Of a stretch of DNA of 64,000 bases, positions 1 through 42,589 are shown piece after piece. The notes under the pieces are model-generated. The model was not told where the DNA came from. It saw only the letters and a list, made by a program, of their open reading frames with translations, and did no database searches. Source of the DNA: Acidaminococcus fermentans (GTDB lineage Bacteria; Bacillota; Negativicutes; Acidaminococcales; Acidaminococcaceae); the NCBI RefSeq assembly GCF_009696675.1, contig NZ_VULN01000005.1:1-64000 (forward strand). Reading direction: 5' to 3'. The first letter of the stretch is position 1. Every line of letters starts with the position of its first letter. Made by a program: the position numbers and the translations under genes.

Positions 1-63
1 ATCCAAAACAAGCTTGCATACCTGGATTTTGAAATCCCTGGTGTACATTTTTAGACTCTTCAT
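1..63 (-). CDS. IS3-family transposase OrfA, N-terminal fragment cut by the window edge
   Basis: Only the first 21 codons are inside the window, beginning MKSLKMYTRDFKIQ. This looks like the helix-turn-helix start of IS3-type OrfA proteins (Transposase_8), which bind the element ends. A clear ribosome site, AGAAAGGAGCG, lies at about 70-80 on the minus strand, so the ATG at 63 is well supported. About 60 bp of leader separate it from heptad-repeat sequence at 127, so the element end is probably near 122. The identification rests on a short stretch; the group within IS3 cannot be named. Confidence 0.6.
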   Translation of the reverse strand, partial: MKSLKMYTRDFKIQVCKLVLD

Positions 64-126
64 AAAAGACGCTCCTTTCTCCAAGAAAGTCTCGCTTCAT
101 ACTGTCTAAATATATGATACACCTTT

Positions 127-190
127 CGTGACTGTCAGCTCATGATTATCTGCCCCCAGCAGATGGTCTCCTTCTGCGTGAGCCTGGAAA
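127..190. repeat. Heptad array plus GCAGATGG hairpin block at the sigma-like gene 3' end
   Basis: CGTGACT (127-133) and GTCAGCT (134-140) are two units of the heptad family seen again at 5114, 6258, 7957 and 23101. They are followed by a hairpin around CATCTGCC/GGCAGATGG-type arms and the tail TCTCCTTCTGCGTGAG. The same tail occurs at 3379-3397 and in part at 6306 and 8005. This block supplies the stop codon and last residues of the neighbouring minus-strand gene. Confidence 0.7.
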
Positions 191-733
191 GCGGCCCCTG
201 CCGCTTTTCACCATCTTCCTCACCTTTTTCAACGCCTTCTGATACCTTCCATACAGCGTGGAGACAGGTTTTCCGAATCCTTCTCCCAGGGTCTTCCAGG
301 GAATCCGCTGACCGGCGGCAAGATATACAAGCCGCTGCTCGTCAGGGGCAAGGCATAGGAACGCGTCCTGTAATTCCCTCCGTTGTACCCGCAGGATAAA
401 GTCTTCGGTGTAATTTTCCTGAGTCTGACCATAGAGTTTCTCTTTCAGTTTGTTCCAGCGCGCCTCTTTCCGGATGTAATGGGACAGCAGGAAGTTCAGA
501 TGGGTCTTCACAAAGCCAGGAAATCTTCTGGCGTCTTCTCCCGGATATTTCCTGATGGCTTCCAGGATTCCCAGCACCAGGGTACTTGCCAGATCCGGCC
601 GCAGAGACAGGTTCTTTTCCTGGCTGGCCATTTTTTTCATCAAGGGCTGAAAGGCTGTAACGATAGCCATCTGGGCTTTTTGATCTCCCTGTTTGGCTTC
701 AGGCAGCAGGGCTGCCAGATCCGTTTTTTCCAT
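146..733 (-). CDS. Sigma-70-like helix-turn-helix regulator of the mobile replication module
   Basis: A 195-residue protein. The opening MEKTDLAALLPEAKQGDQK resembles the region-2-like start of small sigma/HTH_16 proteins (UviA/TxeR-like and phage late regulators). A C-terminal segment around LGEGFGKPVSTLYGRYQKAL looks like a region-4 helix-turn-helix. The start at 733 follows AGGAGG about 8 bp upstream and lies 13 bp after the stop of the DnaC-like gene, so the two are probably cotranscribed. The frame is open further upstream but without a ribosome site. The last 15 or so residues, rich in Arg and ending PSAGGR, are encoded by an intergenic repeat, so the native C-terminus has been replaced. 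Target promoters are unknown. Confidence 0.6.
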   Translation of the reverse strand: MEKTDLAALLPEAKQGDQKAQMAIVTAFQPLMKKMASQEKNLSLRPDLASTLVLGILEAIRKYPGEDARRFPGFVKTHLNFLLSHYIRKEARWNKLKEKLYGQTQENYTEDFILRVQRRELQDAFLCLAPDEQRLVYLAAGQRIPWKTLGEGFGKPVSTLYGRYQKALKKVRKMVKSGRGRFPGSRRRRPSAGGR

Positions 734-746
734 AGGCGTTCCTCCT

Positions 747-1688
747 TCATGCCTTTGCAAAAAGTTCCATAGGAGCCGGTTGGCTTTTCCGGAACATTCC
801 CGGTTTCCCCTCTCCCATCTTCCGCCGGTCCAGTCCATACAGCAGGGCGGGCATAGTCATTCCCGCCAGACGGCTGCAAATCCGTTCTGCCACGTCCCGG
901 TCATGTTTATCCGGCTTGCCAATGACCTGGGCCATCTTTTCCCCAAGAGTTTTCAGCCCGTAATTGGTGGTCACGATGGTGAGCTTTTTCCCCATGTATC
1001 GGGCATCAATGACCCGTTCCAGCTGTTCCAGTCCCCAGGCACTGAACCGTTCTGATCCCAGATTGTCCATGATCAGCAGGTCAACATTCTCCAGGCTGCG
1101 GTCCTGCTGATCCGGATTCCGGGCATTGTTCCGGAACAGGTATCGCATCCAGCCTGTGGTGGCAAACATCACCTTCTTTCCCTGCTGCAGAAACTGGTTC
1201 CCCACAACGGAGGACAGAAATGTCTTTCCGGTACCCCGGCTCCCATAGATGTACATCCCTTTTTCCACATCTTTTCCCCGCACCAGTTCCTGAGCCATCC
1301 GCACGGCCTGCTGATTGCCTTCGGATACCTGATAGTCATCAAAGCCCTTTCCCTGGTACATGTCAGGAATCCCGGCTGCCGCTTTCTGTTCCTCGTACAG
1401 CTTTTTTCGCTGAAGCATTTTTACCTTGGGACAGGGTGTCAATGGAAAATAGGGATAGCCCCGATATCCGGTGAAAATGTGAACCATTTCTGGTACGGGC
1501 TGTCTGCATTTTCCATCCCTGCAGTTCCGGCAGAGTTCCTGTTCCTTTCGGACCCGCTCAATATCATCCTCACAGTTCTGGATATATTTCTCCATCACAT
1601 GGGCTGGAGGGCCAAACAGGTTGGCCAGATCCACATAGATGCTCTTTTCTTTTTTCGGTTGTTCTGTTGTCTCTCTGTTTTCTTCCAC
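747..1688 (-). CDS. DnaC-like helicase loader, AAA+ ATPase
   Basis: A 313-residue protein. The Walker A motif GSRGTGKT lies near residue 150, the Walker B-like LLIMDNLGSE near 207, and an arginine-rich sensor region near 270. The N-terminal part has CRNCRDGKCRQP and a later Cys, suggesting a small metal-binding domain as in DnaC/DnaI relatives. The expected role is loading replicative helicase at the element's own origin. The start is GTG at 1688 with GGAAGGAGA just upstream. It lies between a DnaD-like initiator and a sigma-like gene on the same strand, a typical phage or plasmid replication order. An IstB-type transposition helper is less likely because no transposase partner is adjacent. 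Confidence 0.75.
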   Translation of the reverse strand: MEENRETTEQPKKEKSIYVDLANLFGPPAHVMEKYIQNCEDDIERVRKEQELCRNCRDGKCRQPVPEMVHIFTGYRGYPYFPLTPCPKVKMLQRKKLYEEQKAAAGIPDMYQGKGFDDYQVSEGNQQAVRMAQELVRGKDVEKGMYIYGSRGTGKTFLSSVVGNQFLQQGKKVMFATTGWMRYLFRNNARNPDQQDRSLENVDLLIMDNLGSERFSAWGLEQLERVIDARYMGKKLTIVTTNYGLKTLGEKMAQVIGKPDKHDRDVAERICSRLAGMTMPALLYGLDRRKMGEGKPGMFRKSQPAPMELFAKA

Positions 1689-1765
1689 GGATGTGTCTCC
1701 TTCCCACGTACCCTGTCAACCAGATGGCTGTCAGGATTTTTCTTTTTTGTCTATTTTTCTTCTAT

Positions 1766-2066
1766 CCTTACCTAACCTAAACTAACCTAACCTGTGGCAA
1801 CCAAAACCAACATCCTGGCAACCAGATTGTGAAACCTGGTTGCCAAGGTGCTTTAGGCCCTGTCAGAATGCGGGTTTCCGGATTTTTCCCAGAAATCGGT
1901 TTCCATTTCTTCCTTCTCAGACGACTGCCATTCGGTTGCCAGGCTTTCCTCATCTGACTGCCAGGTGGGTGCCAGGTTATTCCCCTTTGGCTGCCACTGC
2001 GGTCTTCCTACTGGTTGACTGGGTGTTGGGTTCTGGTTGCCAGGATTCCAAAACCCGGGCAACCAG
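1766..2066. repeat. Candidate replication origin: pentamer repeats plus TGGCAACCA iterons
   Basis: Five pentamers of type CCTAA run from 1766 to 1790. Next come copies of TGGCAACCAG in both orientations at 1795-1803, 1816-1825, 1836-1845, 1933-1943, 2033-2044 and 2058-2066, with degenerate TGCCAGG or TGCCAC copies at 1956, 1967 and 1989. Copies 1816-1825 and 1836-1845 form a perfect 10-bp inverted repeat with a 10-bp spacer. Most others lie inside the 3' part of the initiator gene, an arrangement known from lambda O. Origin function is inferred. Confidence 0.5.
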
Positions 2067-2422
2067 TGTTCTTTACACTCTTCTTTGATTACGTAAACTC
2101 CTTCAGAAGAAAGTGTAACGTACTGTTTTTCTACAGCAGTACTGGCCCGATACCGATCTTTACGGATATTGTTGTGATAAAACCAGTGCCGGATTACAAC
2201 GACACCGGACGTAAAGGTCAGGATATAGTTCAATCGGTCCAGTTCTGCCATATCTTCCTCCGTACAACTGGTATACCGGACGATAGCCAGCGGATTCCCC
2301 ACGAACCCGTCATCATCTGCATCCAGCAGCAGGTGCATATAGAGCCCCTGGGAAGAAGGTTTCAGACGCAGAAAATGGTCTCTTTTGACCACATCTCTGC
2401 AGATCATGCGTCGGTTTGCCAT
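1853..2422 (-). CDS. DnaD-like replication initiator (phage replisome organizer)
   Basis: A 189-residue protein opening MANRRMICRDVVKRDHFL, with the compact N-terminal winged-helix fold typical of phage replisome organizers: FLRLKPSSQGLYMHLLLDAD, then WFYHNNIRKDRYRAS near residue 100. The C-terminal third is low complexity, rich in Trp, Gln, Asn and Ser, because its DNA consists of TGGTTGCCA-type iterons. The ATG at 2422 has AGAGGAGA about 10 bp upstream; an in-frame ATG nine codons earlier overlaps the ribosome site and is less likely. It lies upstream of the helicase-loader gene. Family members bind their own gene at iterons, which fits the repeats seen here. Confidence 0.65.
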   Translation of the reverse strand: MANRRMICRDVVKRDHFLRLKPSSQGLYMHLLLDADDDGFVGNPLAIVRYTSCTEEDMAELDRLNYILTFTSGVVVIRHWFYHNNIRKDRYRASTAVEKQYVTLSSEGVYVIKEECKEHWLPGFWNPGNQNPTPSQPVGRPQWQPKGNNLAPTWQSDEESLATEWQSSEKEEMETDFWEKSGNPHSDRA

Positions 2423-2458
2423 TTCATAAACATCTCCTCTCAAAATCAATAAAGGGAC

Positions 2459-2487
2459 AAAAAAATACCAGGAGCCGAAACTCCTGG
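2459..2487 (-). terminator. Rho-independent terminator between small ORFs and the initiator gene
   Basis: Inverted repeat CCAGGAG (2468-2474) and CTCCTGG (2481-2487). On the minus strand the hairpin is followed by a T-run at 2466-2459. It would end transcription of the two small upstream ORFs or attenuate read-through into the replication genes. Confidence 0.6.
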
Positions 2488-2491
2488 CATT

Positions 2492-2641
2492 TCATTTTGG
2501 CAGATTTTCTGCATAAAAAACAGGATTCCGTCTCGTCCGTTTCTGGTTTTCGGGTATGAAAAAACCGTGCAGCAAAACAGCCTCTTCTGCTGAAAGGGTC
2601 AGCAAAGCAGCCTGTTTCAGTAAGGCATAGGCCTTCTGCAC
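2492..2641 (-). CDS. Possible 49-residue small protein of unknown function
   Basis: GTG-initiated open frame, MQKAYALLKQAALLTLSAEE onward, ending in LPK. The composition looks like a real small helical protein, and the frame ends just before a terminator. It begins 4 nt after the stop of the preceding small ORF, so it could be translationally coupled. It has no good ribosome site of its own, and the frame is open further upstream. I do not recognise a family. Treat as tentative. Confidence 0.35.
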   Translation of the reverse strand: MQKAYALLKQAALLTLSAEEAVLLHGFFIPENQKRTRRNPVFYAENLPK

Positions 2642-2645
2642 AGAA

Positions 2646-2774
2646 TCAGAAACGACGGTAGGAATCCTCGTAATGGTTGTATTTCAAACGTCTGAAGGTA
2701 TTGTGTTTGATGGTTTGGGCTGTGCGGGAAATGCACTTCCAGGAACAACTTCCCTGGTAAGCGTTGATCAGCAA
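2646..2774 (-). CDS. Possible 42-residue basic small protein, first gene of the replication module
   Basis: TTG start at 2774 preceded by AGAGGAGTG at good spacing, downstream of a near-consensus promoter at 2838-2865. The product is basic and aromatic, with RRLKYNHYEDSYRRF at its C-terminus. Small early phage proteins in this position are often regulators or host-takeover peptides, but no family is recognised. Promoter, ribosome site and coding look together make it more likely than chance. Confidence 0.45.
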   Translation of the reverse strand: MLINAYQGSCSWKCISRTAQTIKHNTFRRLKYNHYEDSYRRF

Positions 2775-2819
2775 GGGGATCACTCCTCTGTTGGGATTTT
2801 TGGCAGAATTGATTAGTAA

Positions 2820-2905
2820 ATTTTATCAGATAATTTTATTATATCAAAATTTATAAAATAGTCAAGTAAGTTCAATGGATTTATGTTTAGATTATCTGAA
2901 CTGCC
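2820..2905 (-). promoter_or_regulatory. Near-consensus promoter and possible operator of the replication module
   Basis: On the minus strand TTGACT (2865-2860) and TATAAT (2843-2838) are separated by 16 bp, in the only strongly AT-rich stretch of the window. A palindrome TTATCAGATAA at 2824-2834 lies just downstream of the -10, and a related ATTATCTGA lies near 2890. These could be repressor sites. No repressor gene is seen nearby. Confidence 0.6.
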
Positions 2906-3139
2906 GTGATTTTTCAGTTAATTTTCTTTTTTCTTGATTTTTTGATTCTGTATTCAAGTTTTCAAGTGTACGCTTGTTCGGGTTGAACGTTCGATTCCAG
3001 ATTACGTTTGTCGTGAGTCATTATGCCAGGCATTTGCTTTTGGACATAGGGCCCTCTGGGCGCACCTGTTGGTTCATCGTTTATCGTTCATCGTGAGTCG
3101 TTATGGAAGGAACCCGTGACCGGGTTCCTTTGAATGAGG
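2906..3139. repeat. Intergenic stretch with heptads and GGAACC hairpin
   Basis: 2906-3000 is AT-rich with no convincing gene. Heptads TTCATCG, TTTATCG, TTCATCG and TGAGTCG occupy 3073-3100. Hairpin GGAACCCG/CGGGTTCC follows at about 3108-3130. The segment near 3020-3060 matches the opening hairpin of the composite repeat at 7687. Confidence 0.55.
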
Positions 3140-3400
3140 ACGCAGCTGACGCTGCTAACCCACCACCCATGCTGCGCATGGATACCCCCGCCCTTGAAAA
3201 GGGCGGATAGTGGGTACGCGGGCTTACGCCCTGGCACCCACATAAAGCAATGGGGCAAAGCCCCGAGCGTATATCCGCCCTTTTCAAGGGCGGGGGACCG
3301 TTGCGCTTGCGCAATGGTGGTGGGTTAGCAGCCCCCAGGGGCTGCGTTTCCCTTCAAAAGCATCTGCCTCCGGCAGATGGTCTCCTTCTGCGTGAGACGG
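3140..3400. repeat. Hairpin repeat block B, copy 1 (AACCCACCACC ... GGTGGTGGGTT)
   Basis: A long imperfect inverted repeat. The outer arms are AACCCACCACC at 3157 and GGTGGTGGGTT at 3316-3326. Inner arms carry the CCCGCCCTTGAAAAGGGCGG type and its complement. Small hairpins flank it at 3141-3154 and 3328-3345. Other copies at 22748 and 42611 keep the architecture but change both sides of the stems. The tail 3360-3397 is the CATCTGCC/GGCAGATGG block. Confidence 0.75.
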
Positions 3401-3482
3401 AAAAGCGTCCCTGCCCCTTTTCCCAATTTCCTCCGAAAAAATCCTCCCTGCCGTCTCTTATACAGTGTAAGGAGGCGGTGAC

Positions 3483-4034
3483 ATGGAAGCAATCAAACGG
3501 CAGGAGGTTCTGGAACTGGCCCGCAGGGCCCGTGGGCACATCCGGAAAATTTACCTGCACTGGACGGCTGGAACCTATGACCAGCTGTTCCCGGACTATC
3601 ACCTTCTGGTCCGGGGGGACGGGAGCCTGGTAACCAGTACCCGGGACTGGACCCGGATCCTCCCCCACACCTGGAACCGGAATACCGGTGCCCTGGGCAT
3701 TGCCCTGTGCTGTGCCAAAGATGCCATGCTCTACGCAGACGGCACCTTCGACCTGGGGGATTATCCCCCCACTCCCCTGCAGGTGGAAAGCACTTCCATC
3801 CTGCTGGCCACCCTGTCAGATGTCTGGAAACTCCCTCTGGAGCCTGCCCAGATCATGACCCATGCAGAGGCTGCCGACCTGGACGGTTACGGGCCAAGCA
3901 TGGCCGGGACGCCCGCTTTTGAACGGTGGGATCTGTGGAAGCTGAAAGACTATGACGGAGTATGGCGCAGCGGCGGGACAGTGCTCCGGGGCAAAGGACT
4001 GTATTATCAGTGGCTGAACAGAAGGAAGTCCTGA
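3483..4034 (+). CDS. N-acetylmuramoyl-L-alanine amidase, T7-lysozyme/PGRP fold
   Basis: A 183-residue protein with a single Amidase_2 domain and no signal peptide. Likely zinc ligands are His26 in LHWTAG, His62 in LPHTW and His127 in IMTHAEAAD; RNTGALGIAL is the core strand typical of the family. It would cleave the MurNAc-L-Ala bond of peptidoglycan and, lacking a signal, needs a holin-like route or lysis to reach it. AAGGAGG at 3469 supports the ATG. It is the first gene of a rightward cassette with DUF1659, DUF2922 and YvrJ genes, a set I recall travelling together in Firmicutes. Whether it is a domesticated phage lysin or part of a chromosomal envelope system is open. Confidence 0.8.
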   Translation: MEAIKRQEVLELARRARGHIRKIYLHWTAGTYDQLFPDYHLLVRGDGSLVTSTRDWTRILPHTWNRNTGALGIALCCAKDAMLYADGTFDLGDYPPTPLQVESTSILLATLSDVWKLPLEPAQIMTHAEAADLDGYGPSMAGTPAFERWDLWKLKDYDGVWRSGGTVLRGKGLYYQWLNRRKS

Positions 4035-4065
4035 TTCTTTCTTTCGCCGTCTCCCTGCAAGCCTT

Positions 4066-4087
4066 AAAAACGCGTTCTGGCGTTTTT
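4066..4087 (+). terminator. Hairpin between amidase and DUF1659 genes
   Basis: Arms AAAAACGC (4066-4073) and GCGTTTTT (4080-4087) make a weak intrinsic terminator or attenuator 32 bp after the amidase stop. It may lower expression of the three small downstream genes, or mark the end of a separate amidase transcript. Confidence 0.5.
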
Positions 4088-4145
4088 CTACCCATAGGCC
4101 ATGTCCTATGTCACATAACGATTCTTTTCAAAGGAGGAAGGAAAT

Positions 4146-4373
4146 ATGGCAGTACAGAAGAACCTCACCGCAGTGACCCTGCAGCTGGAAATCAGCAACG
4201 GGGTGGACAAAAATGACCAGCCCAAATTCAAGAACATCAGCTACGAAAAGCTGTCCACCGATGCCACCCCTGAAAAACTGGCGGAAGTGGGCAAGGAATT
4301 CGGCGGGCTGATGGCAGAAGCTCCCAAGGGGATGTACATCGTGGAACGGCATACCCTGGAAGAAGTGGCGTAA
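4146..4373 (+). CDS. DUF1659 family small protein
   Basis: A 75-residue protein, MAVQKNLTAVTLQLEISNG onward. The pattern of a short beta-rich N-terminus, a central KNISYEKLSTDATPEKLAEV and a C-terminal YIVERHTLEEV matches DUF1659 as I know it. No signal peptide or membrane span. Strong ribosome site AAAGGAGGAAGG. It lies 15 bp before the DUF2922 gene, and the two families are regular partners. Function is unknown; the constant company of a peptidoglycan amidase and a YvrJ membrane peptide suggests a structural or regulatory part of one envelope-acting unit. Confidence 0.75.
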   Translation: MAVQKNLTAVTLQLEISNGVDKNDQPKFKNISYEKLSTDATPEKLAEVGKEFGGLMAEAPKGMYIVERHTLEEVA

Positions 4374-4388
4374 AGGAGGTAGTGCACA

Positions 4389-4634
4389 ATGGCAGATTCC
4401 AGAAAACTGGACCTGATTTTCAAGGACAGCGAAAAAGCGACCAAAAACATCCGCATCGTGAACCCCCGCTCTGACGTGGACCGGGAAATGGTGCTGCCGG
4501 TGATGAACAAAGTGGTGGAAAGCAAAGTCTTCCTCACCAAGAACGGCATTCCTGTGGAAACCATCCAGGGGGCCAAAGTGACCGATGTCAAGGATCTGTT
4601 GGCAGACGGAACTGACGAAGTCACCGAGGGCTAA
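4389..4634 (+). CDS. DUF2922 family small protein
   Basis: An 81-residue soluble protein, MADSRKLDLIFKDSEKATK onward. The N-terminal strand-like LDLIF, central NPRSDVDREMVLPVMNKVVE and ending are as in DUF2922. The preceding AAAGGAGGTAGTGCACA is a strong ribosome site. It sits between DUF1659 and YvrJ with 3-15 bp gaps, so the three are surely one transcript. No catalytic motif is visible and function is unknown. A phage-tail or holin accessory role is possible but unproven. Confidence 0.75.
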   Translation: MADSRKLDLIFKDSEKATKNIRIVNPRSDVDREMVLPVMNKVVESKVFLTKNGIPVETIQGAKVTDVKDLLADGTDEVTEG

Positions 4635-4637
4635 CCC

Positions 4638-4787
4638 ATGGAGGACCTGTCCCTGCTGGCCGGCCAGGCTGCCCAGTACGGATTCCCCATGGTCATTTCC
4701 TGGTACCTGCTGGTACGCATGGAAGAGAAACTGGAGAACCTGACCCAGAGCATCGAACGGCTGCGCATGGCAGTGAAAATGGAATAG
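4638..4787 (+). CDS. YvrJ family small membrane protein
   Basis: A 49-residue peptide, MEDLSLLAGQAAQYGFPMVI onward. One hydrophobic helix (about residues 13-27, FPMVISWYLLV) is followed by an amphipathic charged helix, RMEEKLENLTQSIERLRMAV. Length and layout match YvrJ proteins. A single-span peptide beside an amidase is what a small holin or amidase-anchoring peptide would look like, but no function has been assigned that I know of. The start follows the DUF2922 stop by 3 bp, so translation is probably coupled. A strong terminator follows at 4792. Confidence 0.7.
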   Translation: MEDLSLLAGQAAQYGFPMVISWYLLVRMEEKLENLTQSIERLRMAVKME

Positions 4788-4791
4788 AGAA

Positions 4792-4826
4792 AAAGCGTGC
4801 TGCGGAAAATGCAGCACGCTTTTTTT
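4792..4826 (+). terminator. Rho-independent terminator of the amidase cassette
   Basis: Arms AAAGCGTGCTGC and GCAGCACGCTTT around a GGAAAAT loop, followed by a T-run. It closes the cassette five bases after the YvrJ stop. Confidence 0.9.
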
Positions 4827-5162
4827 GTCAGCGGTCAGCGGCCGTTGGAAACCAGATGCTGCCGCATCTGGTTTTGAATATATGGCCCCCTGGGCGGCCG
4901 GGACGGGCTCCCCTGCGGGGAGCCCCTACACCGTTGAATTCGGAGGACCAACGTAAAATCACAGAAACAAAGTTATCGAAGATTCCGTTTCTGTGACCAT
5001 CGGCTTGAACATATGACAGCAACGGCGTAGGGGCGGGCCCCAGGCCCGCCCATCCCGGCCTCCGTTTTTTATACGTTCCCAGGAACCCGCCCGGCGGGTT
5101 CCCTCCTTCTGCTAGAGACTAGAGACCAGTGACTGTCAGCTCATGACCATCGGCCTCCGGCA
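4827..5162. repeat. Composite intergenic repeat A, copy 1
   Basis: Starts with heptads GTCAGCG (4827, 4834) and GCCGTTG (4841). Hairpin ACCAGATGC/GCATCTGGT comes next, then a GGGCTCCCCTGCGGGGAGCCCC hairpin at about 4908-4929. CAGAAAC/GTTTCTG arms follow at about 4962-4999, then hairpins GGCGGGCC/GGCCCGCC and AACCCGCC/GGCGGGTT. It ends in heptads AGAGACT, AGAGACC, AGTGACT and GTCAGCT (5114-5141) and the CATCGGCC block. No gene is supported in this stretch; its open frames recur in other copies and lack ribosome sites. Confidence 0.8.
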
Positions 5163-5893
5163 GAAAGACCGTCAACCTCCGGCTGGACGGCAAAAGCATC
5201 CGTCTTGATGTATATGTGGAAGACGAAGAAGGCCGCGTGTACGACATCGAGATGCAGTGCACCAACTCCCCCAGAAATGATCTGGCCAAACGCAGCCGTT
5301 TCTACCAGAGTCTGATTGATGGGGAACTGCTGGATAAAGGCAAACCCTATGAAGAACTGAACCCGTCCCACGTAATCTTTATCTGCACGTTCGACCCGTT
5401 CCATCGGAATCTGCCAATTTACACATTTACCCATTGCTGTCAGGAAGATAACAGGGTAAAATTAAAAGATAAGGAAACCAGGATGTTCCTGAACAGTAAA
5501 GGCAGCGAAAATGCGGTTGATCCTGAGATTGCCGCTTTTCTCCGGTACGTGGATGGAAAAGCGGCAAAAGGGAAATTCGTGGAAAGCCTGGATCAGGAAG
5601 TCCATCTGGTAAAGAGTATGGATAAAGTGAGGCGAGAATATATGATTATTTTAAGTGGTGGATTCAAAAGACGCCAGAAAGAAAAAGACATACGGCAAGG
5701 TATGCGGCAAGGTATGCTACAAGGTATGCAGAAAGGCATACAGAAAGGCATACAAGAAGGCCGCCAGGAAGAACGGGAAGCCAACATTGTTGCCATGCTG
5801 AAAGAAAAGATCCCCATGGAGACCATTTCCCGGATCACCCATTACTCTCTGGACCAGATCCAGAAACTGGGAAAATTGCATGGATTGCTGTAG
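5163..5893 (+). pseudogene. Rpn/YhgA-type PD-(D/E)XK nuclease, 5'-truncated by repeat A
   Basis: Codons from about 5168 read TVNLRLDGKSIRLDVYVEDE, then EGRVYDIEMQ. This is the PD-(D/E)XK core (Asp, then Glu-x-Gln) of Rpn recombination-promoting nucleases. The C-terminal part has the usual charged heptad-like repeats built from RQGMRQGM and QKGIQKGI. Family members usually run near 290 residues; here roughly the first 60 are missing. An in-frame stop at 5144-5146 lies in the repeat, whose junction with the gene is at about 5162. The first in-frame start is GTG at 5216, after the first catalytic Asp, so any product is probably inactive. Rpn proteins promote RecA-independent recombination in E. 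coli. Confidence 0.7.
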
Positions 5894-5930
5894 GTTAGAA
5901 AACGCTCAGGGCGTTTTCCTTCCCAATGAT

Positions 5931-5961
5931 AAGGCCGCCGGACAATCCGGCGGCCTTTTGG
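5931..5961 (+). terminator. Strong GC-rich terminator after the Rpn remnant
   Basis: AAGGCCGCCGGA and TCCGGCGGCCTT arms with a four-base loop, then TTT. A second weaker hairpin GAAAACGC/GCGTTTTC lies at 5898-5918. An almost identical hairpin is at 7637-7662. Confidence 0.8.
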
Positions 5962-6330
5962 TTCATCGTTGGTCGTTCGTCGTGAGTCGTTTCGGATGCC
6001 AGATGCTCACACATCTGCCTTTGAACATAAAAAAACGCAGGCCGGGATGGGCTTCCCTGCGGGCAGCCCCTACCACGTTGGGATCAGAGATGCAACGGAA
6101 ATTCACAGAAACGAAGTTATCGAAGATTCCGTTTCTGTGACCATCGGCTTGAACATATGACAGCAACGGCGTAGGGGCGCGCCACAGGCACGCCCGTCCC
6201 GGCCTCCGGGTTTTATACGTTCCCAGGAACCCGCCCGGCGGGTTCCCTCCTTCCGCTGGAGACTAGAGACTAGTGACTGTCAGCTCATGACCATCTGCCC
6301 CCGGCAGATGGTCTCCATCGGCGTGAGACG
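5962..6330. repeat. Composite intergenic repeat A, copy 2
   Basis: Heptads TTCATCG, TTGGTCG, TTCGTCG and TGAGTCG (5962-5989) open it. The same module order as copy 1 follows, including the CAGAAAC/GTTTCTG stem, the AACCCGCC hairpin and closing heptads at 6258-6285. A CATCTGCC/GGCAGATGG hairpin ends it. No gene is supported. Confidence 0.8.
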
Positions 6331-6361
6331 GAAAAGCAGCAGGCCGTTTCTGACTTCTCTT

Positions 6362-7117
6362 TCACTCCGCCCTGTCATCCCGAATAAACACATACCGGTC
6401 ATCCCGGGACAGTTCCGGGCTCCAGACATAGCCGCTCCAGCAGAACCCTTTCATGTCTTCCGGCTTTGCCGCTCCTTTGCCTGCCAGATACCGGACCATT
6501 TCTCCCCGGGCCATTTTCACATAGACCCCTTTCTGGACCACCTTGTCTCCTGCCCATTCTCCAAAGATTACCTGGATGAGCCGGTCTCCCGGCTGCAAAT
6601 AAGCTTCGACTGCCCGGCTGTATTCTTTGGATGCCAGATTGATGATTACCCCGTCCTCATCCCGGCAGGCCCGGTACAGCCGGTCTCCCCAGAACTCATA
6701 CAGGTTCCGGGACCCTTCCGGTGCCCCCTTGGCCTGCATTTCCAACCGGTAGGGGACCACCCCGTCAAAGGGCCGCAGCACTCCATAAAATCCTGAAAGG
6801 ATCCGGACCCGTTCCCCCACCCAGTCCATCTGTCCGTCTTCGAACACAGCAGGGGCCATGTACTGGTACTGGATCCCTTCATAAGCCAGGATCGCCGGCG
6901 TAACCTCCCGGTCCAAATCCATCTGACGGAGCCGTGCATAATTTTCTTCTGCCAGGGCCGGACTGCAGGCCCACAGTTTCTGAAGCGCCTCAAAAGACAG
7001 GCCCCGGAGCCAGGTCAGCAGTTTTCGGGTTTCCTTCAAAAAAGAAGGCGGGGTGCAGGAGCACCCCGATTCCAGATCCACCTGCATTTTCTTGGCCGGG
7101 GAAATGATGATCCTCAT
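6362..7117 (-). CDS. yaaA: YaaA family peroxide stress protein (UPF0246)
   Basis: A 251-residue cytoplasmic protein. The opening MRIIISPAKKMQ, the central GFYGVLRPFDGVVPYRLEM, and the later INLASKEY and F-x-KMARGEM segments are hallmarks of YaaA/UPF0246. E. coli YaaA limits free iron and oxidative damage under peroxide stress and has a DNA-binding fold. The ATG overlaps the stop of the upstream bcp gene by 4 bp, so translation is coupled. Pairing with a thiol peroxidase supports an oxidative-stress role. Confidence 0.93.
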   Translation of the reverse strand: MRIIISPAKKMQVDLESGCSCTPPSFLKETRKLLTWLRGLSFEALQKLWACSPALAEENYARLRQMDLDREVTPAILAYEGIQYQYMAPAVFEDGQMDWVGERVRILSGFYGVLRPFDGVVPYRLEMQAKGAPEGSRNLYEFWGDRLYRACRDEDGVIINLASKEYSRAVEAYLQPGDRLIQVIFGEWAGDKVVQKGVYVKMARGEMVRYLAGKGAAKPEDMKGFCWSGYVWSPELSRDDRYVFIRDDRAE

Positions 7118-7569
7118 TCCAGCGCCTCCAGCATCTGGGCGGGATTTTCTGCCGGTTTCACTTTTCCCATAGCTTTAACGATGATTCCCTGTTCATCGAT
7201 CAGATAGGTGCTGCGCACCACGCCCATGGATACCTTTCCGTACAGCTTCTTTTCCTTCCAGACGTCATAGGCCTGGAGCACGTTTTTTTCCGTATCAGAA
7301 AGCAGGGTAAAAGGCAGACCGTATTTATCCTGGAATTTTTTGTGGGAAGCCACCGAATCCTTGCTGACCCCCAGTACCACAGCCCCCTTCTCCCGGAACT
7401 GAGGATACAGTTCTCCAAAGGCACAGGCCTGTTTGGTGCAGCCGGGGGTATTATCCCGTGGATAAAAATACAGGATCACTTTCTGTCCCCGATAGTCGGA
7501 CAAAGAATGCATGTCCCCATTTTGATCCGGAAGCGTAAAATCCGGTGCCGCCGTTCCAATTTCCAGCAT
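7114..7569 (-). CDS. bcp: Thioredoxin-dependent thiol peroxidase, Bcp/PrxQ type
   Basis: A 151-residue atypical 2-Cys peroxiredoxin. The peroxidatic Cys44 is in NTPGCTKQAC and the resolving Cys49 five residues on, the spacing of the PrxQ alpha type. The opening APDFTLPDQNG is also typical. It reduces hydrogen peroxide and organic peroxides using thioredoxin. AAGGAGGGG precedes the ATG. A TATAAT-like -10 lies at 7616-7611 on the minus strand without a clear -35. It forms a two-gene operon with yaaA. Confidence 0.95.
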   Translation of the reverse strand: MLEIGTAAPDFTLPDQNGDMHSLSDYRGQKVILYFYPRDNTPGCTKQACAFGELYPQFREKGAVVLGVSKDSVASHKKFQDKYGLPFTLLSDTEKNVLQAYDVWKEKKLYGKVSMGVVRSTYLIDEQGIIVKAMGKVKPAENPAQMLEALE

Positions 7570-7636
7570 GGCAAACCCCTCCTTGAAAACACTCAGTTTA
7601 TTTGGAAGATATTATAACATAGAATGGATCGGAAAA

Positions 7637-8018
7637 GGCCGCCGGAAAATCCGGAGGCCTTTTGGTGCATCGTGAGTCGTTCGTCGTTGTGGATGGCAAA
7701 TGCCAGGCATTTGCCGTTGAACGTATAGCCCTCTGGGCGGCCGGGACGGGCTCCCCTGCGGGGAGCCCCTACCACGTTGGGGTCAGAGGACCAGCAGGAA
7801 ATCAGAAAAACGGGGTTGTCAAAAAATCCGTTCCTGTGACCGTTGTATCCAACATCCGACCCCAACGCCGTAGGGGCGCGCCAAAGGCACGCCCATCCCG
7901 GCCTGCGCTTTTTATACGTTCCCAGGAACCCGCCCGGCGGGTTCCCTCCTTCCGCTAGAGACTAGAGACTAGTGACTGTCAGCTCATGACCATCTGCCTC
8001 CGGCAGATGGTCTCCTTT
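7637..8018. repeat. Terminator-like hairpin and composite repeat A, copy 3
   Basis: GGCCGCCGGA/TCCGGAGGCC hairpin at 7637-7662, heptads TGCATCG, TGAGTCG and TTCGTCG (7666-7686), hairpin GGCAAATG/CATTTGCC, then the same modules as copies 1 and 2. It ends in heptads at 7957-7984 and the CATCTGCC/GGCAGATGG hairpin. Compared with copy 1, both arms of the first hairpin differ, so pairing is kept while sequence is not. No gene is supported here. Confidence 0.8.
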
Positions 8019-8063
8019 TAAATCCCGGAGACTTGAAAGTCCCCACCCCATTTCACAAACTTT

Positions 8064-8966
8064 CTATCTCCCCCAATACCTTTTATACCACATTGCTGCC
8101 TGTTTCCATGACTGGGGAACACCCCTGCCTTCTTCGTACAGTCTGGCAATGGCATTGCAGGCGCTGGGGCTGCCTCGTAACCAGGCTTTCCGATACCAGA
8201 CCAGGGCCTGGGCAGGGTCTGCCTGGCCCAGGTATCCACTTTCCCAAAAGTGTCCCATGATTTCACAGGCCCCGGGATGGCCCTGTCGGGCGGCTTTCTC
8301 ATACCAGATTCCGGCCTGTTCCAGGTCATGGCAGCGCAGCCGGTATTCCTGGGCCAGGCGCACCTGGGCTTCTGCATGGCCTTTTGCAGCGGCTTTCTGA
8401 TACCATGCCAGCCGTTTCTCCCGCCAGCTTTCATTTTTCTCTTCACTCACCAGCCGGAGAAAGGAACCCATGGCCAGCTGGGCCGCTGCAAAGCCCTGGG
8501 CAGCGGACTTCCCGAACCAAATCAGAGCTTCTTCATAGGATGGATCCACGCCTTCTCCATAGGCGTACATGATTCCCAGATAATACTGTGCCAGGAAGTC
8601 TCCTTCTGCTGCCCGGGCCCGGATTTTTTCTCTCTGCCGGACGAACACCCGGACGGATTCGCCCAGGCCGGGCAGGTCTTTCAATGCGCCAAAGGCAGGA
8701 GCCACCGGATCCCCGGCCCGGGAAGCCGCAGAAGCGTAAGACCGGGCCAGTCCCTCATCCAGGAAGAAGGTTCCATATCCTCCATCCAGGTACAGAGCCA
8801 GAAGAAAAAGAGCCCGGCCGCAGCCATCCCAGGCTTTCGCCTGGATTTGAGGATAAGCCTCCCCAGCTGGAAGATTCAAAAACAGTTGATCCAGTTCACA
8901 AGTTTCTTTCCCCAGCTGTTCCTTTGCATCTGCCTGCTTTACTTTTTCCCCTGCTTTGCTCTCCAT
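8064..8966 (-). CDS. Sel1-repeat (TPR-like) protein
   Basis: A 300-residue soluble protein without a signal peptide. Several Sel1-like repeats of about 36 residues run from about residue 85 to the end, recognisable by LGIMYAYGEGVDPSYEEALI, AAAKGHAEAQVRLAQEY, AARQGHPGACEIMGHF and IARLYEEGRGVPQSWKQAAM. Sel1 repeats are protein-interaction scaffolds. The start at 8966 has AGGAGG 8 bp upstream; an in-frame GTG at 9017 overlaps the upstream gene and is less likely. It is the last gene of an operon with an HD hydrolase and a protein of unknown function. Partner unknown. Confidence 0.8.
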   Translation of the reverse strand: MESKAGEKVKQADAKEQLGKETCELDQLFLNLPAGEAYPQIQAKAWDGCGRALFLLALYLDGGYGTFFLDEGLARSYASAASRAGDPVAPAFGALKDLPGLGESVRVFVRQREKIRARAAEGDFLAQYYLGIMYAYGEGVDPSYEEALIWFGKSAAQGFAAAQLAMGSFLRLVSEEKNESWREKRLAWYQKAAAKGHAEAQVRLAQEYRLRCHDLEQAGIWYEKAARQGHPGACEIMGHFWESGYLGQADPAQALVWYRKAWLRGSPSACNAIARLYEEGRGVPQSWKQAAMWYKRYWGR

Positions 8967-9003
8967 AGTCTGAACCTCCTGCGATGCCCAGCTCTCTGTC
9001 GGC

Positions 9004-9438
9004 CTACTGCTCTTCACTTAAAATCCCGTACGCTTTGCGGTATTTTTCCACCCGTTTCCGGTCCTTTTCCGTCACTTCCGGCAGCCGGGTCAGGTCCATA
9101 TTGTTCCGCAGGTCCGCCTTTTTCACGGCGATGGCGTAGGGATTCCCGCTTTCTTTGATCTGCCGCACATACTCCAGATAGGGCACCTTCTTGTCATGGG
9201 TCAGCAGGGCCACCGCATCTGCCACGGTTTTCCCAAACAACTGTTCCAGGGTTCCCCGGTCCATGGCCGTATCTTCCAGGGTATCATGGAGCATCCCCAC
9301 CAGGGCATATTCTTCCCCCAGGGGAAGCACCTGATCCGATACGAACTTCACATGATAAATGTAGTCTTTCCCGGCCCGGTCCTTTTGTCCGGCGTGGAAT
9401 TTCTTTGCCACTTCATAGGCCAATACCAGTTTATCCAT
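9004..9438 (-). CDS. HD-domain protein, likely small alarmone hydrolase (MESH1/RelA HD-like)
   Basis: A 144-residue protein consisting of an HD domain only. It shows an N-terminal H-x-GQKDRAGKDYIYH, the metal/catalytic LHDTLEDT (HDxxED) and KKADLRNNMD. This set matches the hydrolase half of RelA/SpoT and stand-alone SAH enzymes that remove pyrophosphate from (p)ppGpp. Other nucleotide-polyphosphate substrates are possible. The ATG follows AAGGAG at 8 bp and lies two bases after the stop of the upstream gene, so translation is coupled. Confidence 0.7.
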   Translation of the reverse strand: MDKLVLAYEVAKKFHAGQKDRAGKDYIYHVKFVSDQVLPLGEEYALVGMLHDTLEDTAMDRGTLEQLFGKTVADAVALLTHDKKVPYLEYVRQIKESGNPYAIAVKKADLRNNMDLTRLPEVTEKDRKRVEKYRKAYGILSEEQ

Positions 9439-9440
9439 TT

Positions 9441-9962
9441 TCACCACTCCTTATTCACATTTGGATTTCCCATTCTCTCCAGGAACCGTACATCCCAGTC
9501 TTCATATTTTTCCATCAGCTCATGGACATGTTGGGCCATGATGATGGCAGGCACTCCGGTATTCACCGTGTACATGAATCGGAACCCCTGAAAGTGGAAG
9601 GGTTCCCCCAGGAGGCTGCTGTAAAACCGATCCAGCACCTGGGGTGTCAGTGGTCCCAGGGCTTTGCCCTTGTCTCCCTTTTGGGAAAATTCCCAGGCCT
9701 GGCCGTTTTCGTCGGCAAAAAGGGTTCCTTTCTGCCCAAACCGCCGGCTCATGGCAGGGCCCAGCCGTTCCAACACCGGCCGGTACAGTGCATTCATATG
9801 GACCAGTACCTGACAGCAGGGCTCCCGTCCGCCCCAGACCCATTCACAGCGAAAATCCACCAGACGCAGCCACCGCTTCAGGGCTTCCAGATTTTCGGGA
9901 TCCACCCCCAGGAATACCCCACAGTGCCGCGTTCCGAACTGATCCAGCAATTGGCTCTCCAT
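9441..9962 (-). CDS. Protein of unknown function upstream of the HD hydrolase
   Basis: A 173-residue soluble protein opening MESQLLDQFGTRHCGVFLGV. No signal peptide, membrane span or known motif is recognised. It is Trp- and Cys-containing in the N-terminal half, and its C-terminal half ends in VHELMEKYEDWDVRFLERM. It is the first gene of an operon: its stop is two bases from the HD hydrolase start. Coding potential is good across its length. Confidence 0.65.
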   Translation of the reverse strand: MESQLLDQFGTRHCGVFLGVDPENLEALKRWLRLVDFRCEWVWGGREPCCQVLVHMNALYRPVLERLGPAMSRRFGQKGTLFADENGQAWEFSQKGDKGKALGPLTPQVLDRFYSSLLGEPFHFQGFRFMYTVNTGVPAIIMAQHVHELMEKYEDWDVRFLERMGNPNVNKEW

Positions 9963-10094
9963 ACTCCATTCCTCCTATAGAAATCTCTCTTTGGATCCTT
10001 GGTTCTCTGCTTTCTCTCTTCTTATTATAAGACATCCAATGGGGAAAAAAGGGGACAGATATTTTTTAACAATCAAAGGAAAGTGACCCATCCA

Positions 10095-10338
10095 TGAGAC
10101 AGCCCACAGAACTGCACATGGAGGCCAAATGCCTGGCCATTTGGCCTTGCATGGAAAAACCGGCGGCCGGGACGGGTTCCCCTGGGTGCAGCCCCTACAA
10201 CCTTGGTATCAATCGATCCAAAAAAAATCCCAGAAACGGAATTGTCGAAAATTCCGTTTCTGGGATCATTTCATCCGACCCTGACGCCGTAGGGGCAGGC
10301 CACAGGCCCGCTCTTCACTCTTCACTCTGCACTCTTAC
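10095..10338. repeat. Composite intergenic repeat A, copy 4, with CTCTTCA heptads
   Basis: Hairpin GGCCAAATG/CATTTGGCC near 10122-10144, the GGGTTCCCC/GGGGC segment, and the CAGAAACGG...CCGTTTCTG stem (10229-10262). It closes with four heptads of type CTCTTCA/CTCTGCA (10311-10338). The heptads run into the stop codon of the M20 hydrolase gene. No gene in the repeat. Confidence 0.75.
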
Positions 10339-11633
10339 TTGTTCCCAAAATGCTCCACCAGCAGGGTGATGGTTGCGGCGGTGCGGGGCAGTACGTCTTC
10401 GTTGAAATCAAAATCGCTCTGATGGTGGCCGGCGGCTTCTTTGGTGCCGTAGAGCATGTAGACGGCCTGGCCGCCGTGTTCCTGGACCCGGCTCATGAAG
10501 TAGCAGCAGTCTTCACTGCCGCTGACTTTCTGTTCCTTTACCACATGCTGGTACAGATTCTGGGATTTCACCAAATCATAGATTTCTTCTCCCATCTCCT
10601 TGGAGGAGTTGGAGGAAGTGGCGCTGCCCCGGGGGGTGATCTTTACGTCCACATCATAGAGCATGGCAGCGGCCCGGCACATCCGTCTGGCTTCTTTGGC
10701 CATGAAGTCGTTGATTTCGGCAGTTTCTCCCCGGGTCTCGAATTTGATCAGACCGTTGGCGGGCACCACGTTCCGGCCGGTGCCGGCTTCCAGGACCCCT
10801 ACGTTGATCCGGGAAGAACCACCGCTGTGGCGGCTGATGGTGTGGAGGGAAATGGCAGCCTGGGCAGCGGCCAAAAGGGCATTCTTCCCTTTTTCCGGTT
10901 CGGCGCCTGCATGGCTGGGCACCCCGGTGAATTCCGCATCCAGTTTGTCGGTGGCCAGGAACCCTTTGGTCATGCACACCAGGGATCCGTCGTTGTAATC
11001 CCCCAGACCGATATGGCCGCTGAGGAAGTAGTCCACATCGTCCACAATGCCGCTCTGGACCATGCTCTTGGCCCCTACCACCCCTTCTTCCCCGGGCTGG
11101 AAGCAGATCTTCAGGGTACCGGCCATTTTGTCCTTATGAGCAGCCACCAGCCGGGCTACGGCCAGGCCAATGGTGGCATGGCCGTCATGGCCGCAGGCGT
11201 GCATGAGCCCGGGGTGTTTGGACTGGAACCCCAGGGCGCTGGGCCGGTGGCTGGGTGCCGGGTCCTCGGCCACGAACAGGGAGTCGATGTCGAACCGGAG
11301 AGCTACGGTTTTACCAGGTTTGGCAAAGTGCATGATCCCCACGCAGCCGGTCATGCCCCCTTTCATCCGGTCCACCAGCACCGGATTGGCCCCTTCCTTG
11401 ATGGCCCGCTGGGCGCATTTTTTCAGGGTATCTTCGTCGGGCACCAGCATCCGGGCACTGTCGTCCAGCACGTCGGCGCCCATTTTCACTTCATATCCCA
11501 GTTTTTCCAGTTCTGTGGCGATGATGGACGTAGTGCGGAATTCAGTCCAGGCGGTTTCCGGATGGGCATGGAGATCCCGTCTCTGCTGGATCATTTCGTC
11601 TTTCATTGCCAAAGCTTCCTCATAATAGGTCAT
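10335..11633 (-). CDS. M20 family metallo-amidohydrolase, AbgA-like
   Basis: A 432-residue cytoplasmic protein. QRRDLHAHPETAWTEF begins the M20D domain; MHACGHDGH carries metal ligands; FQPGEEGVVGAK is the catalytic Glu region; GVPSHAGAEPEKGKNAL opens the dimerisation domain. Overall it resembles the A subunit of p-aminobenzoyl-glutamate hydrolase or an N-acyl amino acid amidase. No AbgB partner is adjacent. Start at 11633: GGGAGGA lies 7 bp upstream, whereas the longer frame starts within repeat sequence. Exact substrate cannot be told from sequence. Confidence 0.85.
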   Translation of the reverse strand: MTYYEEALAMKDEMIQQRRDLHAHPETAWTEFRTTSIIATELEKLGYEVKMGADVLDDSARMLVPDEDTLKKCAQRAIKEGANPVLVDRMKGGMTGCVGIMHFAKPGKTVALRFDIDSLFVAEDPAPSHRPSALGFQSKHPGLMHACGHDGHATIGLAVARLVAAHKDKMAGTLKICFQPGEEGVVGAKSMVQSGIVDDVDYFLSGHIGLGDYNDGSLVCMTKGFLATDKLDAEFTGVPSHAGAEPEKGKNALLAAAQAAISLHTISRHSGGSSRINVGVLEAGTGRNVVPANGLIKFETRGETAEINDFMAKEARRMCRAAAMLYDVDVKITPRGSATSSNSSKEMGEEIYDLVKSQNLYQHVVKEQKVSGSEDCCYFMSRVQEHGGQAVYMLYGTKEAAGHHQSDFDFNEDVLPRTAATITLLVEHFGNK

Positions 11634-11673
11634 GGTTTTATCCTCCCTGAATATATTTGAACAGTCTCTAGCT

Positions 11674-11701
11674 CTCTTCACTCTTCACTCTGCCCTCTTC
11701 A
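11674..11701. repeat. Heptad array overlapping the DUF4127 gene stop
   Basis: Units CTCTTCA (11674), CTCTTCA (11681), CTCTGCC (11688) and CTCTTCA (11695). The TGA stop of the DUF4127 gene at 11685-11687 lies in the second unit, and the last few codons are heptad-encoded. Confidence 0.75.
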
Positions 11702-13256
11702 CTGCCACTTCGAAGGTCCTGTGCCAGGGCAGGCTGTACCGGTACTGTTCCGGCCGCTTGCCCAGGAGGGGCACTCCTTCTTTCAGCATTTTTTCGGTGA
11801 CCAGGGTTTCCGCCTGGGCGGTCTGGGCATCGGTGAGCTTTCCGTCCGTCCACTGTCGGGGCCAGATCAGTTCCTGGCGCACCTGCTGCCGGACTTTGCT
11901 CTGGTAGAGCCAGTCGTCCAGGTACCGGACGGTCAAAAGGTCCTGCCGGTCCCGGTCGCTCAGATACGGCCGGAGCATCCCCTGGCCCAGGGCGTATCCC
12001 AGGCTGTTGCTGGCAGTGTTCCACCCGGCGTAGGACCCCAGCCGGTACCCCAGAGGCTCCTGCCCCGGTTCCCCGGTCAGCAGGCCCTTTACCAGGGCGG
12101 TGCTGCCTCCGTTTCCAAAGGCCACGTCGGCGATCCCCACATTCCGTCCCTGCCGGACGTACTTTTGGGCAGTGGCCAGGAACTGCTGGCCCTGTTCATC
12201 CAGATCCGGTCCGTTGGCGGCAGAATCCGCACCCAGGGTCACCCCGTCCCCCGGGGTATAGAGCCCCAGCACCAGGTCCGCCCGCTTGTCCGTCCGGGCC
12301 GGGTATCCTCCTGCAGCCAGCACATGCTGCCGGTAACTGGTGCCCATGGGGCTGTCCTCGTAACTGGCCACAGTGGCGGCTCCGGTGCCCCCATTGTACC
12401 AGCCGTATACCAGAGGGGTCTCTCCCCGTGCCTTGTTCAGGGCCCGGTTCAGCAGCACCATCCCCAGTTCGTCCGCCCCGGAAAAACTCCGGAACTTGTA
12501 CCGGAAGGCCGGGTCGGCGAAATTTTCCAGGTCCGCCGCATCTTTATGGGCTTCGGAATAGGGGGCGGAATCGTCCCGTCCGATGAGGAAATAGTCCATT
12601 TTCCCTGCTTCCAGGCCCCGGGTAAGCCCTTTCAGCACAAACAGGTTCTTTCCCCGGCGTTCCAGTACATCCCGGCGGATATCCAGGGGCAGAGCCTGTT
12701 CCACCTGGTTCAGTTCGTTTTTCTCCTTCCGGGTGAGGATCCCCAGCCGCTTTCTGTCCCGGAGCTGTCCCCACCGGAAGATCTGAGGCCCGTACTGGGC
12801 ATAGTAAGCCGGTTCCGCCGGAGCGCTGCTCCACTTGGGGGAGCGCATCACCGTGGCAAAGCCGTAAAGGGGCACTCCCGGGTGCCGCTTTTTGAAGGCC
12901 AGCAGAGCATTGGCCCTTTGGGCCAGCACCGCCGGATCCAGTTCATGAGTCCGGGAAGGCACCAGGCCCCCGTAAATGAGACTGTCCGTGGACACCACCG
13001 CTCCTGCCGCTCCCCGGGCTTCCTGGTCCAGCCATTGGGCCAGCTTGTCCGGGTCCCCGTTCTGCCGGTCGCTGGCCAGGAACTTCTCCGGCGGGGTCAC
13101 CACCTGGACCCCTGCCTTCCGGAAGCTGTCCACCGTATAGGCCAGGGACACGGGACGGTTGTCCAGGGGAATGAAAAGGATTTTCTCCGCTGCCGCCGGT
13201 GCACAAACACCCATCAGCAGCACAACAAAAGCACCAAAACGTTTACACCAGCCCAA
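11685..13256 (-). CDS. DUF4127 family secreted protein
   Basis: A 523-residue protein with a signal peptide (about residues 1-23, ending CAPAAAEK). EKILFIPLDNRPVSLAYT, DSLIYGGLVPSRTH, FATVMRSPKWSSAPAEP and GRDDSAPYSEAHKDA are landmarks of DUF4127. Members are extracytoplasmic or lipid-anchored and of unknown function; the conserved Asp, Arg and His clusters hint at an enzyme. TTG start at 13256 with AAAGAGGTG upstream, 16 bp after the preceding gene. It ends the operon HD phosphohydrolase, membrane protein, DUF4127. Confidence 0.8.
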   Translation of the reverse strand: MGWCKRFGAFVVLLMGVCAPAAAEKILFIPLDNRPVSLAYTVDSFRKAGVQVVTPPEKFLASDRQNGDPDKLAQWLDQEARGAAGAVVSTDSLIYGGLVPSRTHELDPAVLAQRANALLAFKKRHPGVPLYGFATVMRSPKWSSAPAEPAYYAQYGPQIFRWGQLRDRKRLGILTRKEKNELNQVEQALPLDIRRDVLERRGKNLFVLKGLTRGLEAGKMDYFLIGRDDSAPYSEAHKDAADLENFADPAFRYKFRSFSGADELGMVLLNRALNKARGETPLVYGWYNGGTGAATVASYEDSPMGTSYRQHVLAAGGYPARTDKRADLVLGLYTPGDGVTLGADSAANGPDLDEQGQQFLATAQKYVRQGRNVGIADVAFGNGGSTALVKGLLTGEPGQEPLGYRLGSYAGWNTASNSLGYALGQGMLRPYLSDRDRQDLLTVRYLDDWLYQSKVRQQVRQELIWPRQWTDGKLTDAQTAQAETLVTEKMLKEGVPLLGKRPEQYRYSLPWHRTFEVAVKRAE

Positions 13257-29518: not shown

Positions 29519-29584
29519 TCAGGTCTCGGGCCACTGGATAGAACCTGTCCTTTGACCAGGTTCTTTTTATTGTGTATCACTGTG

Positions 29585-29700
29585 TATAACCGTAGGGGGC
29601 GCAGGCCCGGCGCCCCGCAAAATGCGCAGATCATCGATGATTTGGCGGGCTGCCCGGCGTGCAGCCCCTACGGTACCGATTTACACGTTCAAAAATATGG
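29585..29700. repeat. Short diverged copy of repeat A
   Basis: CGTAGGGGGCGCAGGCCCGG and the GGCTGCCCGGCGTGCAGCCC segment match the GTAGGGGC and CAGCCCCTAC ends of the composite repeat, with most inner modules absent. No gene is seen in this gap. Confidence 0.55.
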
Positions 29701-42524: not shown

Positions 42525-42589
42525 TTACACTAAGGTGGCACGTTGTGTGAACAACCCCGGTCACTGGCCGATGGAAAGAACCCGTGGCT

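Follow-up and report, generated by a model that had tools for sequence, protein, structure and literature searches.

The genes encoding DUF1659, DUF2922 and YvrJ constituted a real and widely shared module of bacterial chromosomes and plasmids rather than a phage lysis cassette. At the start of the window, which is the whole 64,000-nucleotide stretch of Acidaminococcus fermentans DNA analysed here, this trio followed an amidase gene, and the trio and the amidase together probably open the cell envelope from inside. Our preferred reading, to which we gave about an even chance, was a sigma-controlled module in which a holin-like peptide and a wall hydrolase serve release or controlled wall opening. 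The trio occurred in two overlapping settings, namely a chromosomal row linked to a sigma factor and a hydrolase-bearing arrangement that was often located on mobile DNA. Gene anatomy, conservation, selection, family relations and co-localisation were computed here.

The sequence-only reading had proposed an amidase, two small soluble proteins and a short membrane peptide beside a phage-like replication module. All four genes were intact, with Pfam scores above the cut-offs, and the replication module corresponded to the sigma-70-family, DnaC-like and DnaD-like genes on the minus strand. The features were as follows:

146-838, minus strand: sigma-70-family factor (TIGR02937, 48.3 bits, cut-off 42.9; Pfam HTH_16); the first ATG was taken as the start and the real start may be internal
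747-1688, minus strand: DnaC-like helicase loader (PHROG 50, E 1e-37; IstB_IS21)
1853-2449, minus strand: DnaD-like replisome organiser (PHROG 5708, E 1e-37)
3483-4034, plus strand: Amidase_2, 183 aa (Pfam 40 bits, cut-off 26)
4066-4087, plus strand: hairpin ending in T5 in the gap between amidase and DUF1659, a possible partial terminator (predicted fold)
4146-4373, plus strand: DUF1659, 75 aa (Pfam 56.9 bits, cut-off 24.1)
4389-4634, plus strand: DUF2922, 81 aa (Pfam 58.3 bits, cut-off 25.5)
4638-4787, plus strand: YvrJ (PF12841), candidate holin-like membrane peptide, 49 aa (Pfam 60.5 bits, cut-off 29.5)
4788-4826, plus strand: intrinsic terminator

The description of the cassette as tightly packed was accurate for the trio, with gaps of 15 bp between DUF1659 and DUF2922 and 3 bp between DUF2922 and YvrJ, and inaccurate for the amidase, which was separated from DUF1659 by 111 bp containing the hairpin at 4066-4087. 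Because of this hairpin, the amidase and the trio may belong to two separate transcripts. The strong terminator assigned to the end of the cassette was borne out by the folding energy of the surrounding 51-base segment (-26.1 kcal/mol) and by a stem that ran into T7; a simple terminator scan did not include 4788-4826 among those it listed. The sigma gene was divergent from the amidase and 2.6 kb away from it, and it fell into the same cluster as the sigma genes that abutted the trio in other genera. Directly downstream of the cassette, positions 5216-5893 carried a partial PD-(D/E)XK family transposase-like ORF that scored just under the Pfam cut-off. Additionally, dispersed repeats of about 50-350 bp, present in many copies with 70-95% identity, were located between genes in the window (3068-3391, 4844-5078, 5992-6270, 7634-8017, 10120-10316, 29523-29684 and 42571-42821) and in loci L005-L007, and the same repeats occupied gaps in other copies of the module.

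The genome (34 contigs) contained four trios, the window being the start of contig C30. Three of the four had the amidase, and these amidases were 96-100% identical. The copy on contig C1 was accompanied by the sigma/DnaC/DnaD group, the copy on C17 was without it, and the fourth trio (contig C34), a degenerate one, had a frameshift in DUF1659 and lacked an amidase beside it. In the C1 and C17 copies, the gap between amidase and DUF1659 was occupied by 430-500 bp of dispersed repeat. The DnaC-like gene adjoined the module in two copies and the DnaD-like gene in two copies and in genome G094, with relatives of the latter present in loci L005 and L069. Between the copies, the amidase had dN of 0.01-0.05 and dS of 0.06-0.26, and dN was well under dS for DUF2922 as well; thus, the copies were maintained and not decaying. 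All 82 codons of the DUF2922 gene in the C17 copy (L006 3613-3858) agreed with those of the gene in a second genome of the genus (G073; L068 6776-7021), whereas at least 25 codons differed from the copies in the window and on C1, which suggested a recent exchange. Contigs C30 and C17 began with the same 127 bases, counted from base 2 in C30 (window 1-128; L006 1-127), which suggested that the assembly broke at a repeat there.

In the family to which the window belongs, taken to be Acidaminococcaceae, the amidase type and DUF2922 were each present in 49 of 59 genomes. The amidase was located no more than 2.1 kb from DUF2922 in 57 of the 88 family copies (37 genomes), several of the other 31 copies lying at contig ends. 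All 57 nearby amidases were on the same strand as DUF2922, 49 of them upstream and 8 downstream. Together with the three copies in the genome and the low dN relative to dS, this placed the four-gene arrangement beyond chance. Among 150 genomes of the class Negativicutes, YvrJ was found in 87 and DUF1659 in 121. We examined 40 regions from class genomes, 79 named loci (mostly Clostridia) and annotated plasmids, where 109 of 134 clusters contained the complete trio; with rare exceptions its genes shared a strand and ran DUF1659, DUF2922, YvrJ. The three families, which tend to occur together in Firmicutes, were conserved as a trio in Negativicutes, Clostridia and Firmicute plasmids. A locus in one class genome (G056) shared 90-96% identity with one from Pelosinus, which identified the class as Negativicutes. 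In some class genomes, an encapsulin (Linocin_M18) and an EncFtn-like protein were encoded upstream of the core trio locus (L062 2314-3150, L060 3089-3430; clusters also in L053 and L058).

Neighbouring genes were counted in 109 loci outside the Acidaminococcus fermentans genome that had YvrJ and at least one of the two DUFs; this set is not the same as the 109 clusters with all three families, and the equal numbers are coincidental. A wall hydrolase was present within 2 kb in 26 of these loci (23 on the same strand), mostly from families unrelated to that of the window; one of the 26 (L088) was on the opposite strand and was called from a single-sequence GH25 seed without a Pfam check. Of 430 near genes 26 encoded hydrolases, as did 4 of 713 genes farther away (odds ratio 11, P 3e-8), a test biased by seeds drawn from the near genes and by the descent relationships of the loci. 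Amidase_3 was located directly upstream of the trio in Romboutsia and in three Negativicutes class loci. On plasmids of Geobacillus and Parageobacillus, an M15 peptidase came directly after YvrJ, and in Clostridia MAGs Amidase_2 or VanY had the corresponding position directly downstream of the trio; a Vagococcus plasmid carried Amidase_3 near the trio. Absence of the amidase from most loci of the trio had been named as a reason to reject the sequence-only reading, and on this point the counts were split: the amidase was present in at least 65% of loci in its own family, and 83 of the 109 loci outside the Acidaminococcus fermentans genome had no wall hydrolase found within 2 kb. Therefore, the trio must be useful without an adjacent hydrolase. 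Hydrolase, sigma factor and ComK-like gene were all absent within 2 kb in 45 of the 109 loci.

The suggestion that YvrJ is a holin-like partner of a hydrolase was strengthened. The PHROG 4898 family, annotated as holin, was matched by 16 of 21 YvrJ peptides (best E 8.9e-8), the match of the window peptide being weak (20.7 bits). A YvrJ query of the Geobacillus type matched a protein annotated as holin in Bacillus phage KonjoTrouble (E 1e-3), and this 49-aa protein (gp33) matched Pfam YvrJ with E 1.3e-6 and 28.3 bits, just below the cut-off of 29.5. Its gene was directly followed by that of a GH25 endolysin (gp34). The KonjoTrouble holin has been assigned from domains, transmembrane prediction and position beside the endolysin (PMC9965433), and since this call was bioinformatic, it counts as family evidence and not as experimental evidence. 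The proposal gained real support because the PHROG holin matches were joined by a phage holin encoded before an endolysin; several unrelated hydrolase families beside the trio agreed with it. The locus in the window likewise had a small membrane peptide and an adjacent wall hydrolase on the same strand. Neither the YvrJ of the window (at E 0.1) nor 21 YvrJ members (at E 1) matched the BhlA/UviB Pfam family. The single membrane span attributed to YvrJ was plausible and its hydrophobicity was weak (best 17-residue Kyte-Doolittle mean 1.1).

The amidase had been called signal-less, and no signal sequence was recognisable by eye at its N-terminus (MEAIKRQEVLEL). It retained the motifs that do not vary in its relatives (LHWTA, DYH, HTW, TH.E and RWDL), matched the PHROG 5867 endolysin family (E 7e-29) and was 32-39% identical to the nearest phage amidases. 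Among solved structures, no sequence relative of the amidase, DUF1659 or DUF2922 was found. Both DUFs were small and without a signal sequence by eye. The AF2 model of DUF1659 (pLDDT 81, moderate) was predicted as strand-strand-helix-strand and had no Foldseek match at E 0.001; the model of DUF2922 was of low confidence (pLDDT 61). The best VIA match of DUF1659, phi29 p6 (Z 5.1, rmsd 2.9, 60 aligned), was set aside because its score was within the range of common arrangements. Homology between DUF1659 and DUF2922 was unsupported (hhalign probability 1.1%). The literature searched contained no paper on the function of YvrJ, DUF1659 or DUF2922.

In the preferred mechanism, a dedicated sigma-70-family factor (in the window, the divergent gene 146-838) would turn on the trio together with the amidase. 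The very short membrane peptide YvrJ, a relative of a phage holin, would permeabilise the cytoplasmic membrane, and the signal-less amidase would then cross it and cut the wall. As a result, cargo protein, DNA or cell contents might be released or passed on, either lytically or along a local route without lysis, as has been proposed for the UviA/UviB/amidase loci. DUF1659 and DUF2922 would act as soluble partners of YvrJ, that is, as cargo, assembly or timing factors. Sigma control of the operon, pore formation, transit of the amidase and these DUF roles are the steps that we infer. The relation of YvrJ to holins, the same-strand hydrolases, the sigma factor near 45 of 109 loci, the transcription of B. 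subtilis yvrJ by SigO-RsoA, the purifying selection and a layout like that of Bcn5 spoke for this reading, and the loci without a nearby hydrolase (83 of 109), the bioinformatic nature of the KonjoTrouble holin call, the lack of a BhlA match, the weak span, the hairpin and the distance of 2.6 kb to the sigma gene spoke against it.

The layout most resembled the loci for release of the bacteriocin Bcn5, which encode the sigma factor UviA, the single-span holin UviB and an amidase (PMC9527704). As in those loci, a sigma-70-family factor, a very short peptide with a putative holin-like single span and an N-acetylmuramoyl-L-alanine amidase shared a neighbourhood. However, YvrJ fell outside the BhlA Pfam family to which UviB belongs, the amidase and the peptide were separated by two conserved small DUFs, a bacteriocin gene was not recognised, and the trio was a chromosomal core in many genera. 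The gp33-gp34 cassette of KonjoTrouble (Salasmaviridae) also had a 49-aa YvrJ-related peptide directly beside a same-strand wall hydrolase, but it was phage-borne, used a GH25 endolysin and had neither annotated DUF1659 or DUF2922 nor a sigma factor. According to PMC9527704, the clostridial TcdR/TcdE release loci likewise combine a sigma factor and a holin, with an endolysin remnant, and differ in the holin family and in the toxin cargo, for which the present locus had no counterpart. The SigO-RsoA factor of B. subtilis transcribes three operons, of which yvrJ is one (PMC8103513). This regulon (oxdC-yvrL, yvrJ) thus also places yvrJ under a dedicated, split sigma factor, whereas the DUF1659 and DUF2922 profiles had no match in the B. 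subtilis genome. A link of the trio to OxdC export was searched for and not found.

More broadly, the trio might be the core of an undescribed Firmicute machine that opens the envelope for the passage of DNA or proteins, has its own sigma factor and a ComK-like regulator, and acquired hydrolases of several unrelated families in independent events on mobile elements; we put this forward tentatively, as possible and on balance doubtful. Three families of many Firmicutes that had no assigned function gain a testable role here, with a holin-type YvrJ, interchangeable hydrolases and sigma control. If the role is true, YvrJ would be a new peptide family for holin-dependent release or DNA passage, and it would be explained why B. 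subtilis keeps yvrJ under SigO-RsoA.

The commonest partner of the trio was the sigma-70-family factor (within 2 kb in 45 of 109 loci), which often abutted DUF1659 and in core loci overlapped its start. In one genome of the same genus, two copies had the sigma gene adjoining the amidase. In the chromosomal setting, the sigma gene abutting DUF1659 was followed by the trio, often by a ComK-like gene, and then by RecD2; in Clostridia, metK was upstream, giving the row metK - sigma - DUF1659 - DUF2922 - YvrJ - ComK-like - RecD2. This row favoured an alternative that we considered fairly unlikely, namely that YvrJ and the DUFs form an accessory module for DNA uptake or transfer, which aids DNA passage in a competence-like state while the hydrolase opens the wall. 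A ComK-like gene was within 2 kb of the trio in 17 of 109 loci. ComK was directly upstream of the trio on Geobacillus and Parageobacillus plasmids, the Geobacillus protein passing the Pfam PF06338 cut-off (25.3 bits, cut-off 22.3), and a profile of the Negativicutes ComK-like proteins matched it with 45 bits. On elements from Psychrobacillus, Lactobacillus and Negativicutes, the trio had SSB and tyrosine integrase genes as neighbours. Moreover, rsoA was up 8.7-fold and sigO 3.9-fold in competent B. subtilis cells (PMC7317962), which keeps a role in DNA passage possible, although this induction was correlative and yvrJ was absent from that table. On the other hand, scans of individual Clostridia and Negativicutes ComK-like proteins gave no match to Pfam ComK with an E value of 0.1 or lower, whole-genome scans gave weak matches below the PF06338 cut-off, the ComK-like gene and RecD2 may lie near the trio simply through synteny, and com pilus genes were not seen beside the trio.

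The ComK-like family, remote from Pfam ComK, adjoined the sigma-trio row in both Clostridia and Negativicutes, and if the proposed role of the trio is right, this regulator is a candidate for testing. It was found beside the trio in L124, L126, L133, L137, L138, L140, L142, L147, L150, L153, L161, L163, L164, L166 and L169, and upstream of the trio in L053, L056, L059, L061, L063, L081, L121 and L123.

The frequency of the sigma factor and its overlap with DUF1659, as well as a sigma - YvrJ - HTH row without the DUFs on a Paenibacillus plasmid, could also mean that YvrJ and the DUFs are a membrane-linked regulator of sigma, such as an anti-sigma factor or a sensor, with hydrolases adjacent only through shared mobile elements. 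We regarded this as quite unlikely given the uniform strand of the family amidases (57 of 57), the several unrelated hydrolases elsewhere and the relation of YvrJ to a holin family; no sigma-binding domain was detected.

The earlier proposal that the cassette could serve the phage-like element beside it as lysis genes was not supported. The YvrJ and DUF2922 of the window had no tblastn match in 50,697 phage records, viral contigs (IMG/VR) scanned for YvrJ and the amidase type gave nothing at close range, and the trio was nearly absent from phages, most of its loci being chromosomal and tied to sigma. Phage-type replication genes recurred near the trio in Terrisporobacter and beside sigma and amidase in genome G114. 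Mobile elements may thus carry the amidase-bearing copies without using them for lysis. We considered it very unlikely that a decayed prophage was the source of both the DnaC/DnaD module and a lysis cassette made up of amidase and YvrJ: the endolysin and replication PHROG matches, the recurring replication genes and an integrase near the trio in L082 and L083 would fit, but close phage or viral-contig relatives were not found, the amidase-trio was under purifying selection and occurred in many genera, and no capsid, tail or terminase gene was recognised by eye among the ORFs of window 1-12000. Loci L082 and L083 were two Amidase_3-trio copies of genome G034 near a tyrosine integrase gene, with an SSB gene too in L082, and their setting was much like that of the Psychrobacillus plasmid pPB01.
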